64,000 nt of DNA from Methanoculleus bourgensis MS2 (GTDB taxonomy: Archaea > Halobacteriota > Methanomicrobia > Methanomicrobiales > Methanoculleaceae). Both the position numbers and the translations under genes were made by a program. The stretch lies in contig NC_018227.2 in NCBI RefSeq assembly GCF_000304355.2, positions 2,666,001 to 2,730,000 of the forward strand, read 5' to 3'. This document shows positions 3,526 to 27,426 of this stretch, in pieces. Under the pieces are notes generated by a model that saw only the letters and a program-made list of their open reading frames with translations, made no database searches and was not told the DNA's origin. The number at the start of each line of letters is the position of its first letter. Within the stretch, counting starts at the first letter, position 1.

Positions 3526-3819
3526 ACCGCGCTCTTACTCCCAAAAACTTATTTTTGACCGGATTCCCGGCAGAGGAACCTCATCGCCGCCCTCCGGCCC
3601 GGTAGTGCTCCAGCATATAACCGATAATTGATCTCAGAGGATCCGACTGAATTACGTTGCGCACCAACCCACGTTCATGACAAAAAATAACCCGGGGAGA
3701 AGATTTCCATTATCGGGTTCTGGCGAAGCCCTATTCTGGCTGTCATTCTTCCCTGACGAGATTGGTGCCGGACCTGGCCTGAAGTTCGACCTTTTTCTTC
3801 TCAAGCATGTCCTCATGCC
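3526..3819. other. gene-free spacer after the RPA operon
   Basis: A T-rich tract (3545-3557) just after the operon could serve as a transcription terminator. The remainder has only short frames without family resemblance. It leads into the dispersed G-rich repeat that starts near 3820. Confidence 0.4.
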
Positions 3820-3990
3820 GTGGACCGTGGTGGCTATCGCCATGGGGGTGGGGCTGACGGGGAGGGGTCTCCCCCCCCATCTTGCGCAAAGAACCGCACA
3901 CTCATCACCCCACCCCGCCCGGCCTCCGGCCTCCTCCCCCGCCCCCTGGGGCGGGGGCAGTCATGGCGATACCCAAGGGAAAGCCGTGCC
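3820..3990. repeat. dispersed G-rich repeat (type A), partial copy
   Basis: The copy begins with GTGGACCGTGGTGGCTATC and goes through a run of G/C blocks that can fold on themselves (cccccgccccctggggcgggg). The same modules recur at 26957-27345, including the CCGGCCTCCGGCCTCC stretch, and in part at 5178, 13326 and 26038. Frames through it give only low-complexity proline/arginine peptides, so it is treated as non-coding. Confidence 0.75.
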
Positions 3991-4061
3991 CCGGATTGCA
4001 ATCAATCGGGAACACCCAGACGAGATCTCAACAAAGTTTGGTATCAGTTGTTTCGTAGGGC

Positions 4062-4241
4062 ACTACTGTATCATTTCATCTAATATTGTCCATGCAATAC
4101 CATCTCACGCGAAGGGCGCGAAGCCGCGAAGTTCGGTTGCTGGGCGGCAGAGTCCCCTTCGCGTTCTTCGCGTCTTCGCGCGAGGTGGCGATCGCTCGCC
4201 CCGCATCAGGACCCGCAACATAAGGTGAAACGGTCCACTAC
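4062..4241. mobile_element. MITE-like element, copy 1, with CTAC target duplication
   Basis: Copy 1 is nearly identical, in reverse orientation, to 26652-26821. Ends: CTAC then TGTATCATTTCATCT on the left, and (reverse complement) TGGACCGTTTCACCT then CTAC on the right. So imperfect terminal inverted repeats of about 15 bases are flanked by an exact 4-bp direct repeat (4063-4066 and 4238-4241). The interior is a long imperfect palindrome of TTCGCG/CGCGAA boxes. No transposase is inside, so it would be moved in trans. Confidence 0.8.
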
Positions 4242-4272: not shown

Positions 4273-4923
4273 TTACTCCGTGGGTTCCTCCGCCGCCTCC
4301 TGTCTGGCCCTCTTCCACGTCCCCTTCAATTCAGGATAGTCATTGAGGATCTTGCTGACCGTGCTCCTGCTCACGCCAAACATCCTGCAGATCTGGCTGA
4401 TGCTCGTCCCGGAGCGCCGTATTGTGATGAGGGCTTCCACCTGGCCGTCGTTGAGCGCCCGCGGACGCCCTATGGGCCGCCCTCCTTCCTTCTTCGCCTT
4501 CTTCGACGCCGGGACGACGGTCTTCAAGGCGCTCTCCCGGTACCGGTCCATATACGCGATGAAGTTACCGATGGCCTCCCTCCGGAGTTCCGGGTCGTCC
4601 CGGGACCCGAAGAAATCATCGCTCACGAAGTAAACCGTATATTGCTCGTTGAGGTCTTTGAGCGTTGCAAGCCCGATATCCATATCCCTGGCAAGGCTGG
4701 CAAGGTCGTAGATGATGATGGCAGAACAGTTGTTGGCGGTGCAGTACTCCAGCATCTCCGTAAAGGCCTTTCTCTTCCCGGGAGGCGTTGCATTCGCCCG
4801 GTGATCATGGAAGATCTCGACGACCTGAAAGCGGTATTTAGAGTAGTTTTCGACTTCATTCTTTTGTGCTGCAAAATCTCCCTTCTTTCTTGTATTCAAG
4901 TATGCCACGGCATCTTTTTTCAT
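4273..4923 (-). CDS. serine-recombinase-like DNA-binding protein lacking the catalytic serine
   Basis: A 216-residue protein with the resolvase/invertase layout: an N-terminal domain (about 1-125, with CSAIIIYDLASLARD matching the conserved D-x-L-x-R strand and helix) and a C-terminal helix-turn-helix (about 160-200, GRPRALNDGQ then ISQICRMFGVSRSTVSKIL). In active enzymes the first strand reads Y-x-R-x-S-T; here it is AYLNTRKKGD, so the nucleophilic serine position holds another residue. The start at 4923 is the first ATG that gives this domain; the open frame to 5343 is an extension without similarity. It sits among repeats. It may be an inactive recombinase or a regulator. Confidence 0.7.
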   Translation of the reverse strand: MKKDAVAYLNTRKKGDFAAQKNEVENYSKYRFQVVEIFHDHRANATPPGKRKAFTEMLEYCTANNCSAIIIYDLASLARDMDIGLATLKDLNEQYTVYFVSDDFFGSRDDPELRREAIGNFIAYMDRYRESALKTVVPASKKAKKEGGRPIGRPRALNDGQVEALITIRRSGTSISQICRMFGVSRSTVSKILNDYPELKGTWKRARQEAAEEPTE

Positions 4924-5177
4924 CAGTTTATGATACCATATAATCGTATAAATGGTTTTTGAAGGTGCATAAATGGTGCTTTTCCAGTGCACATCATACG
5001 ATTTGGCGTGTTTACGGGCACTTTGTCGATGATGTATGAAAACGGATCCGGAGACAACCTCCCCTGAGGCGATCGCACGGGGATGGACCCTCTGGTAGCG
5101 CCCCGGCATATGCCCAACAATCCACCTCAGGATTCTGGACAATAGGAGGTTCCGGACTGTTCCCCGCCTCACCCGGG

Positions 5178-5240
5178 CAGTGGACCGTGGTGGGAATCGC
5201 CCCGGGGGTGGGGACCGGCGAGGGGGCTCGCCCCCATGAG
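5178..5240. repeat. type A dispersed repeat, short copy
   Basis: It shares CAGTGGACCGTGGTGG followed by a G-rich stretch and GAGGGGGCTCGCCCCC with 26038 and 26957. The downstream parts of the longer copies are missing or diverged here. Confidence 0.65.
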
Positions 5241-5276
5241 CGCTAACTTTAGCCATGAGAATTCGAGCGGATAATG

Positions 5277-5317
5277 CCCTATTCGGTGAAATAGGGCCGA
5301 TTTGGTGAGATATCGGC
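5277..5317. repeat. two adjacent perfect hairpins with GGTGA loops
   Basis: Hairpin one is CCCTATT / AATAGGG (7 bp) with loop CGGTGA. Hairpin two is GCCGAT / ATCGGC (6 bp) with loop TTGGTGAGAT and shares its first base with the end of hairpin one. Both loops carry GGTGA. The pair is not part of the other repeats in the window. Confidence 0.6.
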
Positions 5318-5640
5318 CACACGATCCCGGTGGTGTGCGGCAATGGTCCTCCTCCGCTGAAAACGATAGGGATCAGGGAAATCTCATGGGAAACGGATTG
5401 CCTTGGGGCAGAGATGAGAACTCGCCGATTGCCTGGTACTTGCCGGTATCACCGAGAATGCATTCCACCCAGCTGGTAAGTTAACGCCTATGGGGCTTGC
5501 CCCCTCCCCGCAGGCGGCGGAAACCGTGACAGAAACCACTGGAGAACTACTGCACAAACCGCGATCAGGTGACCTCCCGGGCACGGGTTCCCGCGGGGTG
5601 AGGGGCTCGAAGAGCGCCGCAGGCAAAAAGAGAGACGAGA

Positions 5641-10484: not shown

Positions 10485-10712
10485 CTACTGCATCGTGTCA
10501 TCTTATTTTAGAAACTTTTGTCGCGTGTTGGGACGGGCACTCTGGTCTCACGCGGGAGTGCGCGAAGGTTGGTATAATCCCCTGCAACGCCCCTTCGCGC
10601 CCTTCGCGTCTTCGCGTGAGGGGTACTAGAGAGTATCGAAGTCTCACGCGAAGCCGCGAAGACGCGAAGAGAGACGGGAGATCTCTACATTGAAGATGAC
10701 AACAAGCACTAC
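10485..10712. mobile_element. MITE-like element, longer type, inserted at the hmgA stop
   Basis: Left end CTAC then TGCATCGTGTCATCTTATTT; right end, read inward on the other strand, TGCTTGTTGTCATCTTCAAT, preceded by the same CTAC (10485-10488 and 10709-10712). So about 18-base imperfect terminal inverted repeats are flanked by an exact 4-bp duplication. The inside holds TTCGCGTCTTCGCG palindromes shared with the shorter elements. The right duplication overlaps the TAG stop of hmgA. A near-identical inverted copy lies at 13027-13245. Confidence 0.8.
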
Positions 10713-11917
10713 CCCCGGCCGAGGTCCTTGTGCGCACGGGCCAGGTGCTGGGCCGCGAGGGCGCCGAGGAGGGAGAGCTCACCGGCGAGCACCCCGGCGG
10801 CGACGACCTCAGCAAACGCCTTTGCGTGGGTGCCCGGCGGGTCACCGCCCCCGGCGACGCCGAGCATCGCAAGGCACTCCCGCTGGGTATCGACCCCAGT
10901 GCCGCCGCCGACCGTCCCCACCGGGAGCGACGGGAGGGTGACCGAGACGTAGACCCCGCCGTCCACCCGGTCGACGGTGGTGATTGCGCTGCTCCCCTCA
11001 ACGACGTGGGCGGCGTCCTGCCCGCAGGCGATGAAGATGGCGGCGATGACGTTCGCCGCATGGGCGTTGAACCCGAACGAGGCCGCCCGGGCCGAGCCTA
11101 CCAGGTTCTTCCGGTAGTTAACCGCGGTGAGGGTCTCGGCATCGGTCTTCAAGAGGTCGGCGATCATCGCATCGGTGAGCCGCACTCCCGCAACCACGGT
11201 CTTCCCCCGACCCCTGACCAGGTTGATCGCCGCTGGTTTCTTGTCGGTGCACATGTTTCCCGAGAGGGCAACCAGGCGTGCCCCGGTCTCCCGCTCGATG
11301 AGTTCACCCACCTTCTGGCTTGCGATCGTCACCATGTTCATGCCCATGGCGTCCTTCGTATCGAACTCCAGGCGGACGAAGACGCTCGTCCCGGCCACGT
11401 AGGTGACGACGTCCAGGAACTCCCCGTGCTTCGTGGTACTCTCCGCGACCTCCCGGATCTCAGGGGTGTGCCCCTCGACCCAGGCGACCACCTTTTGGGC
11501 GTGGACAACGTCGCGGGCGGCAAAGACCGGCGCCCGGGTCATCCCGTCCCGCATGATCCGCACATCCGCACCCCCCGCCCGCGTGATCAGGGAGCACCCG
11601 CGGTTCACCGACGCAACAAGCGCCCCCTCGGTCGTCGCCAGCGGGAGGTAGCAGGACCCGGCGGCGTACTCCCCGTTCACCTTGAGCGGTCCTGCAACAC
11701 CGAGCGGCACCTGCACCGTGCCGATCATGTTCTCGATGTTACGCTTCACCACCCGGTCAATCCCGATGGAGAACGACCCCACGGCGGGGAGACGGGTCCC
11801 GGTCTCGCCCTCGATGAACGTCCGCCGCACCCGGACCGCCTCCTCCGGCGGGAGTTCCTTCTCGAGCGCGTAGAGTTTGAGGGAGCCCTCTTTCAGCCTC
11901 CTGATATACTCATCCAT
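10709..11917 (-). CDS. hmgA: 3-hydroxy-3-methylglutaryl-CoA reductase
   Basis: It reduces HMG-CoA to mevalonate with NADPH, committing carbon to isoprenoid lipids. The 402-residue class I-like enzyme shows all key elements: ENMIGTVQVPLGVAGPL with catalytic Glu (about 66), CTDKKPAAINLVRGRGK with catalytic Lys, the nucleotide-binding GTVGGGTGVDTQ, and a late HLARAH with the catalytic histidine region. It is in opposite orientation to the synthase operon. Its TAG stop lies in the 4-bp target duplication of a mobile repeat, but the protein ends intact with the usual tail. Confidence 0.96.
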   Translation of the reverse strand: MDEYIRRLKEGSLKLYALEKELPPEEAVRVRRTFIEGETGTRLPAVGSFSIGIDRVVKRNIENMIGTVQVPLGVAGPLKVNGEYAAGSCYLPLATTEGALVASVNRGCSLITRAGGADVRIMRDGMTRAPVFAARDVVHAQKVVAWVEGHTPEIREVAESTTKHGEFLDVVTYVAGTSVFVRLEFDTKDAMGMNMVTIASQKVGELIERETGARLVALSGNMCTDKKPAAINLVRGRGKTVVAGVRLTDAMIADLLKTDAETLTAVNYRKNLVGSARAASFGFNAHAANVIAAIFIACGQDAAHVVEGSSAITTVDRVDGGVYVSVTLPSLPVGTVGGGTGVDTQRECLAMLGVAGGGDPPGTHAKAFAEVVAAGVLAGELSLLGALAAQHLARAHKDLGRG

Positions 11918-12884: not shown

Positions 12885-13026
12885 GTTTTCCCGGGCCGCC
12901 CTCCTTAGAAACCGCACAATACTAACTTAAGCGTAATTTGAAGAAACAGTAGGGTTCCATTCACCATGAAACCACCATGAGGCTAGTGCCGAGTCAATCA
13001 TTCAACGTCGGATATGGGCGTGCTCG
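12885..13026. other. spacer before the inverted MITE copy
   Basis: No gene seen. An A/T-rich patch at 12920-12950 follows the methyltransferase gene. The stretch ends at the left end of the inverted mobile repeat. Confidence 0.4.
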
Positions 13027-13245
13027 TGCTTGTTGTCATCTTCAACGTAGAGATCTCCCGTCTCTCTTCGCGTCTTCGCGGCTTCGCGTGAGACTTCGGT
13101 ACTCTCTAGTACCCCTCACGCGAAGCCGCGAAGACGCGAAGGGGCGTTGCAGGGGATTATACCGAACATCGCGCTCTCCCGCGTGAGACCAGAGTGCCCA
13201 TCCTGGCACGTTCCAAAAATCTCTAAAATAAGATGACACGATGCA
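13027..13245. mobile_element. MITE-like element, longer type, inverted copy
   Basis: It is the reverse complement of 10489-10708 with few differences: it starts TGCTTGTTGTCATCTTCAAC and ends GTCATC-type on the other strand (AAGATGACACGATGCA). Flanking tetranucleotides are CTCG and CTAT, so no exact target duplication is left here. With the copy at 10485 it brackets hmgA and the trm5-like gene as a 2.7-kb inverted pair. Confidence 0.8.
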
Positions 13246-13324
13246 CTATTGCGACAATTCGTCGTTGACATGACACTAGCGAGAGGCGGCACAAAGCAGG
13301 ATTTTCCCCGGGCTCACCTCATGC

Positions 13325-13362
13325 AGTGGACCGTGGTGGCAATCGAGCCGGGGGGGATCTAG
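13325..13362. repeat. type A dispersed repeat, short copy
   Basis: It contains CAGTGGACCGTGGTGGCAATC and a following G run, as in the copies at 5178, 26038 and 26957. The remainder of the long form is absent. It lies directly downstream of rimI's stop. Confidence 0.6.
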
Positions 13363-25868: not shown

Positions 25869-26037
25869 GGGGGGGCTCCCCCCATTGGCGTGAACGCAAC
25901 CACGGGTGCACTGCGTTCCGGGTTGGCTATCGGGGAGGTTCAAGCTCGGTTACCCCCATGTCGGTTCTGATGATCCCGTCCCCACCCACCTCAGCATGGA
26001 TGGAGAACGCGGAGTACCCCCCGGCTCACCCGGGCAG
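25869..26037. other. spacer after the flavodoxin gene
   Basis: GC-rich stretch with an early GGGGGGCTCCCCCC self-complementary run close to the stop that may terminate transcription. No gene is seen. It leads into a long type A repeat. Confidence 0.4.
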
Positions 26038-26330
26038 TGGACCGTGGTGGCTATCACCCCAGGGGTGGGGGCAGGGGAGGGGGCAAGCCCCCTCCCCGCA
26101 GGCGGCGGAACTCGCAGAACCCCCACTCCGCCCGGGGACGATGAACTCCCGGAGCGAACCGGTCGGGCTCTCACCGATTGCCCCCCGACAAGGATCAAGA
26201 CCGTTTTCCGAGGCGGTGGACGATTGACCACAGACCGGTCAATAATACCCGAAACCGACGTTTGTCTCCTGAATTGGACGATATCCTCACGAGTCTCCAT
26301 ACCGAACGTTAGCGCGTATGGGGCTCCCCC
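26038..26330. repeat. type A dispersed repeat, long copy 1
   Basis: It starts with CAGTGGACCGTGGTGGCTATC, passes the CCCCTCCCCGCAGGCGGCGG block and a long unique part (CCCCCCGACAAGGATC, GACCGTTTTCCGAGG, CTCCTGAATTGGACG, ATCCTCACGAGTCTCC) and ends with a GTATGGGGCTC. The same order recurs at 26957-27345 with about 90 added bases. Frames through it differ between copies, so it is taken as non-coding or as a decayed element. Confidence 0.8.
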
Positions 26331-26651: not shown

Positions 26652-26821
26652 CTAGTGGACCATTTCACCTTATGTTGCGGGTCCTGATGCGTAGTAGCGA
26701 TCGCCACCTCACGCGAAGAACGCGAAGGGGACTCTGCCGCCCAGCAACCGAACTTCGCGGCTTCGCGCCCTTCGCGTGAGATGGTATTGCATGGACAATA
26801 TTAGATGAAATGCTCCACTAG
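26652..26821. mobile_element. MITE-like element, copy 2, with CTAG target duplication
   Basis: A 170-base element bounded by CTAG at 26652-26655 and 26818-26821. Terminal inverted repeats: TGGACCATTTCACCTTA on the left and, from the other strand, TGGAGCATTTCATCTAA on the right. It is nearly identical in reverse to 4062-4241. The interior is two palindromic blocks of TCACGCGAA / TTCGCGTGA. It has no coding capacity. Confidence 0.85.
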
Positions 26822-27426
26822 TAGAGCGTTGCATCTTATTTTGCGGGTTCTGGCGTGGATCACGCGGAAGATCGCGAAGGGGTGTGGAGCGTTCATGGGG
26901 CAGAGCGAGCGGCTGGACGCAGGAAAACAACCTATCCCCCAGGCTCTCACCCCATGTTGTGGACCGTGGTGGCTATCACCCCGGGGGTGGGGACAGGGGA
27001 GGGGGCGAGCCCCCTCTCCGCAGGCGGCGGAACCTGTCGGTCCTTCCTCGTAGCCCCCACCCCGCCCGGCCTCCGGCCTCCTCCCCCGCCCCCTCAGGGG
27101 GCGGGGGTAGTGCGAGGCGATACCCAGGGGCAAACCCTGCCCGGGCACGATGAACTTCTGGTGCGAACCGGTTGGGCTCTCGCTGATTGCCCCCCGACAA
27201 GGATCCAGACCGTTTTCCGAGGAGGTGGACGATTGACCGCAGACCGGCCAATGGTGCCCGAAACCGACCCTCATCTCCTGAATTGGACGGTATCCTCACG
27301 AGTCTCCCTACCAAACGTTAACGCCAATGGGGCTCGCCTCCTCCCCCCGTACGGAAGCCATGCCCGGGGCACGACGCCAAACCGGGGATATCTTCACGGG
27401 AAATGTTAGTTGAAATACTCCACTAG
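26818..27426. mobile_element. composite MITE-like element sharing its CTAG with copy 2
   Basis: Its left end CTAG then TAGAGCGTTGCATCTTATTT resembles the left ends of the other elements, and its right end, read inward, is CTAG then TGGAGTATTTCAACTAAC. CTAG lies on both sides (26818-26821, 27423-27426), the first shared with the end of copy 2. The interior is mainly a long type A repeat. It may be a larger relative that carried the type A sequence. Confidence 0.6.
26957..27345. repeat. type A dispersed repeat, long copy 2
   Basis: It repeats 26038-26330 in direct orientation with high identity, plus an inserted block (CCCGCCCGGCCTCCGGCCTC, then a C/G hairpin and GGCGATACCCAGGG) that is also present at 3895-3990. 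So the three long copies are mosaics of shared modules. Confidence 0.8.

Follow-up and report, generated by a model that had tools for sequence, protein, structure and literature searches.

The genome of Methanoculleus bourgensis MS2 harbors an orphan MITE family, genuine and of an already known kind: its members are short and carry no transposase gene, end in terminal inverted repeats (TIRs), are flanked by a 4-bp target-site duplication (TSD) made on insertion, and are present in many dispersed copies. Our overall reading, to which we assign a probability of about 93%, is that a DDE transposase with a 4-bp stagger would have moved these MITEs in trans (both the enzyme class and the action in trans are what we infer), that they would have amplified in the MS2 lineage alone among the genomes searched, leaving near-identical copies, that regeneration of CTAG accounts for their arrays, and that the palindromic core within most of them is a separate repeat. 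These data document, with clean empty sites as evidence, a large MITE burst specific to one methanogen lineage, and indicate a simple route by which an element that duplicates its own target word comes to accumulate in arrays if that word is genomically rare. They also bring a cross-phylum palindromic repeat to attention. Our literature search found nothing specific on MITEs in Methanoculleus.

Elements in a 64-kb window

The window, meaning the whole 64-kb stretch of DNA that was analyzed, spans positions 2,666,001-2,730,000 of a single-contig genome (2,789,774 bp, 99.95% complete). Its features, in window coordinates, are as follows.

4063-4066, left TSD CTAC of element A1 (direct reading)
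4067-4237, plus strand, MITE A1, family A, 171 bp, TG...CA ends, TTCGCG hairpin core
4105-4186, plus strand, palindromic core of A1, CGCGAAG repeats opposite CTTCGCG repeats, hairpin (folding)
4238-4241, right TSD CTAC of element A1 (direct reading)
10485-10488, left TSD CTAC of element B1 (direct reading)
10489-10708, plus strand, MITE B1, family B, 220 bp, TIR motif as in A, hairpin core
10626-10629, internal CTAG of B1, intact here but occupied by a family A insertion in a B-like copy elsewhere (around genome position 1964578-1964748)
10709-10712, right TSD CTAC of B1, which includes the TAG stop of the minus-strand ORF 10709-11917
12983-12986, left TSD CTAG of element F1
12987-13275, plus strand, element F1, 289 bp, ends TGCCGAGTCAATCA / TGTCATGTCAACGA, with a B-like segment inside (13027-13245)
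13276-13279, right TSD CTAG of element F1
26652-26655, left TSD CTAG of element A2
26656-26817, minus strand, MITE A2, family A, 162 bp, inverted relative to A1
26818-26821, one CTAG common to A2 and the 601-bp element (array junction)
26822-27422, plus strand, 601-bp TIR element, ends TAGAGCGTTGCATCTTATTTTG / TGGAGTATTTCAACTAACATT, CTAG on each side, no transposase similarity
27423-27426, right TSD CTAG of the 601-bp element

A sequence-only reading of the window had described A1 and A2 as near-identical inverted copies with terminal repeats and exact 4-bp flanks. Direct reading agrees: the two are 92% identical across 166 columns, with a small deletion, and lie in opposite orientations. The TIRs of A1 are TGTATCATTTCATCTAATATTG and TGGACCGTTTCACCTTATGTTG, and the element ends are 5'-TG...CA-3'. 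The flanks and the element were correctly recognized, but the start had been placed one base early, at 4062, whereas CTAC begins at 4063. For B1, the reported CTAC flanks and palindromic core are present, but the description of its ends as different was overstated. B1, whose ends are TGCATCGTGTCATCTTATTTTAG and TGCTTGTTGTCATCTTCAATG, is a family distinct from A, and the two have TG-n5-TKKCAYCTT in common, with TKKCAYCTT equally far from the end in both. Two further elements, F1 and the 601-bp element, were absent from that reading, and both have CTAG duplications.

Several other features of the window were observed. B1 lies at the TAG stop codon of a minus-strand ORF (10709-11917), and the stop is preserved by the duplication. 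A special preference for stop codons was considered and rejected, as TSDs closing frames of at least 100 codons were found at 17 of 138 flanks versus 23 of 116 control CTAG sites. Adjoining A1 is a gene (4273-5343, minus strand) that encodes an N-terminal stretch of ~150 amino acids followed by a serine-recombinase domain and HTH, with weak similarity to CcrA. The 100 bp to the left of A1 (3967-4066) is a repeat that occurs in several Methanoculleus genomes and terminates at CACTAC; it is perhaps the end of another element. An intergenic repeat, GTGGACCGTGGTGGCTATCACC..., is dispersed genome-wide and occurs in the window at 3811-3853, 5177-5235, 13313-13354, 26034-26082, and 26950-27145, where it makes up a large share of the 601-bp element's interior. 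An Rfam search of the window gave tRNA as its sole match.

Copy number, families, and distribution

With A1 as the query, 45 near-full-length copies were recovered from the genome at 92 to 100% identity, many of them at 98 to 100%. The TIR pattern TG-n5-TKKCANCTWA matched the genome 310 times, versus once for a reversed-pattern control, giving ~155 elements; a stricter TIR pattern matched 203 times, versus once for its reversed control. We delimited 125 elements within 291 kb of sampled DNA, made up of stretches picked around matches and not of the whole genome. TIRs were paired in all 125, and the sizes were mostly 145 to 330 bp, with a maximum of 601 bp. Clustering after filtering yielded family A (150 to 179 bp, n = 56), family B (211 to 235 bp, n = 20), family C (145 to 153 bp, n = 8), a core-less family of 277 to 303 bp (n = 6), a family of 323 to 370 bp (n = 4), and smaller groups. 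A second ~290-bp type, recognized by TGCCRAGTCAAY at its ends, is bordered by CTAG left and right in 10 of 11 cases and encloses B-like segments, which explains why several B copies are without matching flanks.

Strict TIR matches numbered 203 in M. bourgensis MS2 versus 0 to 6 per genome in 34 congeners, and another TIR-pattern count gave 246 versus 0 to 4. Outside the genus, a single genome among 197 from the order matched the TIR pattern. In light of these counts, we conclude that the burst is lineage specific among the genomes searched. The lone extrageneric match (G227:C44, ~222954) is a genuine short element, A-like at its ends and flanked by TTAG and CTAG. Its genome comes from another family of the order, and its presence there may reflect horizontal transfer or assembly contamination.

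Target-site duplication

Identical 4-bp flanks were present in 85 of the 125 delimited elements (CTAG in 66, CTAC in 11, and others in 8, namely GTAG in two and GTAT, CTAT, ATAG, GGAG, TTAG, and CTGG in one each). The set therefore comprises CTAG and its single-base variants (CTAC, GTAG, CTAT, ATAG, TTAG, and CTGG), plus GTAT and GGAG. Identical flanks were missing in the other 40, of which ~8 are B segments within the ~290-bp type; the remainder may be mutated or recombined. Among elements not adjoining another element, 33 of 54 have identical 4-mers. CTAG/CTAG flanks say little by themselves, given the preference for CTAG as a site; the case is carried by pairs other than CTAG and by the empty sites. 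When CTAG/CTAG pairs were set aside, 13 of 34 isolated elements had matching flanks, compared with 2.7 expected from flank frequencies (P ~1e-6).

Empty sites were found both among paralogues within the genome and among orthologues in related species. A B-like copy is split at its internal CTAG by the element at 1964578-1964748; uninterrupted paralogues, up to 95% identical over the junction, have CTAG once. The TTAG into which the element at 1297711-1297930 has inserted, within another element, occurs once in a paralogue. At 1081185, the interrupted reading frame is contiguous in four relatives (81 to 97% identity), which have a single CTAG, CTGG, or CTTG. The insertion at 1019418 lies at a TAG stop codon, and the site is contiguous in four relatives; the site at 1107553 is likewise uninterrupted in relatives, with a slightly different junction in some species. 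Since the 4-mer is single at uninterrupted sites, the duplication arises on insertion. The earlier proposal of a MITE family with genuine 4-bp duplications thus holds on the two points at which it had been thought vulnerable: most delimited copies do carry TIRs and duplications, and the flanking repeats do not predate the element.

These observations bear on a rival explanation, in which recombination spread the copies as ordinary repeats, dispersed or tandem, and the CTAG flanks were already in place. The arrays at 73469-73989 and 1444296-1444809 consist of near-identical units in the same orientation, for which tandem amplification is possible. However, the 4-mer is single at empty sites, arrays mix families, and the TSDs vary (GTAT, GGAG, and TTAG among them), so that this explanation is very improbable. 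The empty sites refute recombination as a general account; for single arrays it may hold.

CTAG scarcity and arrays

CTAG occurs 16 times in the window, versus 62 expected from a trinucleotide Markov model or 223 from composition, and is thus ~4-fold underrepresented relative to the Markov expectation. Arrays of 2 to 5 elements, often of mixed families, contain 71 of the 125 delimited elements, and 43 neighboring pairs have one common 4-mer. Each MITE insertion adds one CTAG, so that two such sites stand where CTAG is scarce, and later elements would then land beside earlier ones, a sequential order that we infer. Target regeneration of this kind is enough to account for the arrays.

The palindromic CGCGAAG core

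An inverted TTCGCG core lies inside 83 of the 110 clustered elements. In the window, cores are located at 4105-4186, 10590-10670, and 26707-26784. The A1 core hairpin has a DNA minimum free energy of -25.1 kcal/mol (z = -2.8 versus shuffles), and the B1 core hairpin has a z of -7.3 versus shuffles.

The core is found genus-wide, without the MITE TIRs in many congeners. Furthermore, the exact motif TCACGCGAAGNCGCGAAGNNCGCGAAG (24 fixed bases) had at least 120 matches in the collection, versus ~0.002 expected by our own estimate under equal base frequencies. The matches include Verrucomicrobia, Sphingomonas, Acidobacteria, Gemmatimonadetes, Planctomycetes, Hydrogenedentota, and Desulfuromonadales, and at the loci inspected the motif is mostly an isolated piece, sometimes with an opposing inverted copy. 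In Methanoculleus, too, the core recurs for the most part away from these MITEs. Because it occurs in many congeners without these TIRs and in many bacterial phyla as an exact motif, the core extends beyond the MITE family; it is a separate, broader repeat that is housed in most of the elements. It is also unnecessary for mobility, since several TIR families with duplications are core-less. One orthologous comparison revealed a ~166-bp insertion that contains the core and has unclear boundaries. A rather doubtful suggestion, which we put forward tentatively, is that the core is a DNA module in its own right across Bacteria and Archaea, spread by mobile elements or bound by a widespread protein, with MITEs as one carrier. 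No published description of the core motif was found in the literature searched, which does not prove that there is none.

The hairpins could also suggest palindromes of the REP/BIME kind whose mover is a Y1 (RAYT/IS200-type) transposase, an enzyme that recognizes a GTAG/CTAC tetranucleotide next to a hairpin. Y1 enzymes are not known to duplicate their target. The many copies and the hairpin cores with adjoining CTAG, CTAC, or GTAG are consistent with such palindromes, but the 4-mer is external to the TIRs and becomes duplicated when an element inserts; REP/RAYT movement predicts no duplication and fails at the empty sites. The very presence of TIRs, and the duplication of the target by core-less families too, makes this explanation scarcely credible.

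Search for the mover

A MITE moves in trans through a partner whose ends match its own, and the survival of that partner in the genome is not required. The sequence-only reading had placed a transposase elsewhere in the genome, but DDE_Tnp_1, DDE_5, rve, and DUF772 searches gave no match with MITE ends. The search used PF01609, PF00665, PF13546, and PF05598, TIR pairing to ~3 kb at loci in MS2 and its congeners, and the ORFs of long elements; IS256, IS6, ISL3, IS66, IS1595, IS630, IS1380, and Y1 lay outside it, and rve was sought in the MS2 genome alone. The six DDE_Tnp_1 places in the genome (one IS5 type, two IS1634, one IS701 type, one IS1634-like, and one degenerate) have no MITE ends, and none were found at the DUF772 genes of the genus. 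The ORFs of the longest elements have no transposase similarity. No autonomous partner was found in the MS2 genome, in 35 Methanoculleus genomes, in the order, in viral contigs, or in phage records. No element was found that combines matching ends with a transposase gene, and the enzyme has therefore probably disappeared from MS2 or become inactive there. The mover was lost from the strain, or belongs to a family outside the search, or has ends too divergent to recognize.

Two candidate sources can be weighed against these results. The first is that the MITEs derive, as nonautonomous forms, from an element of IS5 or IS701 type that has a 4-bp target, in keeping with TSDs centered on TA. The attribution of the duplications to IS5-type transposases with YTAR targets, made from the sequence alone, is not supported: 67 of the 85 TSDs fit YTAR (CTAG 66 and TTAG 1), but CTAC, the second commonest, falls outside it, as do GTAG, GTAT, CTAT, ATAG, GGAG, and CTGG. 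The sole IS5-family element found, an IS5_2 gene at ~997.5 to 998.3 kb, ends in GGCTCTGTTGAA and has apparent 8-bp flanks, CAAGCATC. The IS701-type gene is the sole DDE_5 match among 35 Methanoculleus genomes and sits in the only genome with the burst, a suggestive coincidence. However, its inverted repeats are TAGGAGTTACGCA and its flanks TTCAG, and the published IS701 end consensus, ---YACT-Y--YR (PMC2266710), does not fit the MITE ends. We consider an origin from either type unlikely.

The second candidate is an rve-type element (IS481/IS3/IS21) that generated the MITEs and was lost afterwards. The ends of rve-type elements are typically 5'-TG...CA-3', and IS481 favors NCTAGN targets. The TG/CA ends of the MITEs and their preference for CTAG resemble these general family features, and the MS2 genome has no rve domain, leaving this origin possible if doubtful.

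Comparison with known systems

The IS701 family resembles the MS2 elements in its 4-bp direct repeats (PMC2266710), and one member is encoded in the MS2 genome. It differs in its ends, as both the published consensus (PMC2266710) and the ends of the MS2 IS701-type element are unlike those of the MITEs.

MITEPsy1 of Pseudomonas syringae pv. phaseolicola, an element resembling ISPsy2 that inserts behind CTAG or YTAA (PMC3189936), is similarly gene-less and short, with TIRs and a 4-bp CTAG/YTAA duplication, and its movement without a gene of its own has been demonstrated (PMC3189936). It differs in being 100 nt long, with ends GGAAGGTCTG... and GTATCCTCTG... like those of ISPsy2, and in having few copies (PMC3189936). 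The MS2 elements, in contrast, have TG...CA ends, ~150 copies, arrays, and an internal CGCGAAG hairpin, and no parent was found for them.

The MITEs of Haloquadratum walsbyi are likewise archaeal, some have no functional transposase in the genome, and CTAG is avoided in the chromosome (PMC3119063). There too, mobile elements are frequently targeted by other mobile elements (PMC3119063). The ends and the host are different, and mutual targeting there mainly involves SMRs on PATEs and IS605-type elements (PMC3119063), whereas in MS2 it follows from the duplicated CTAG.
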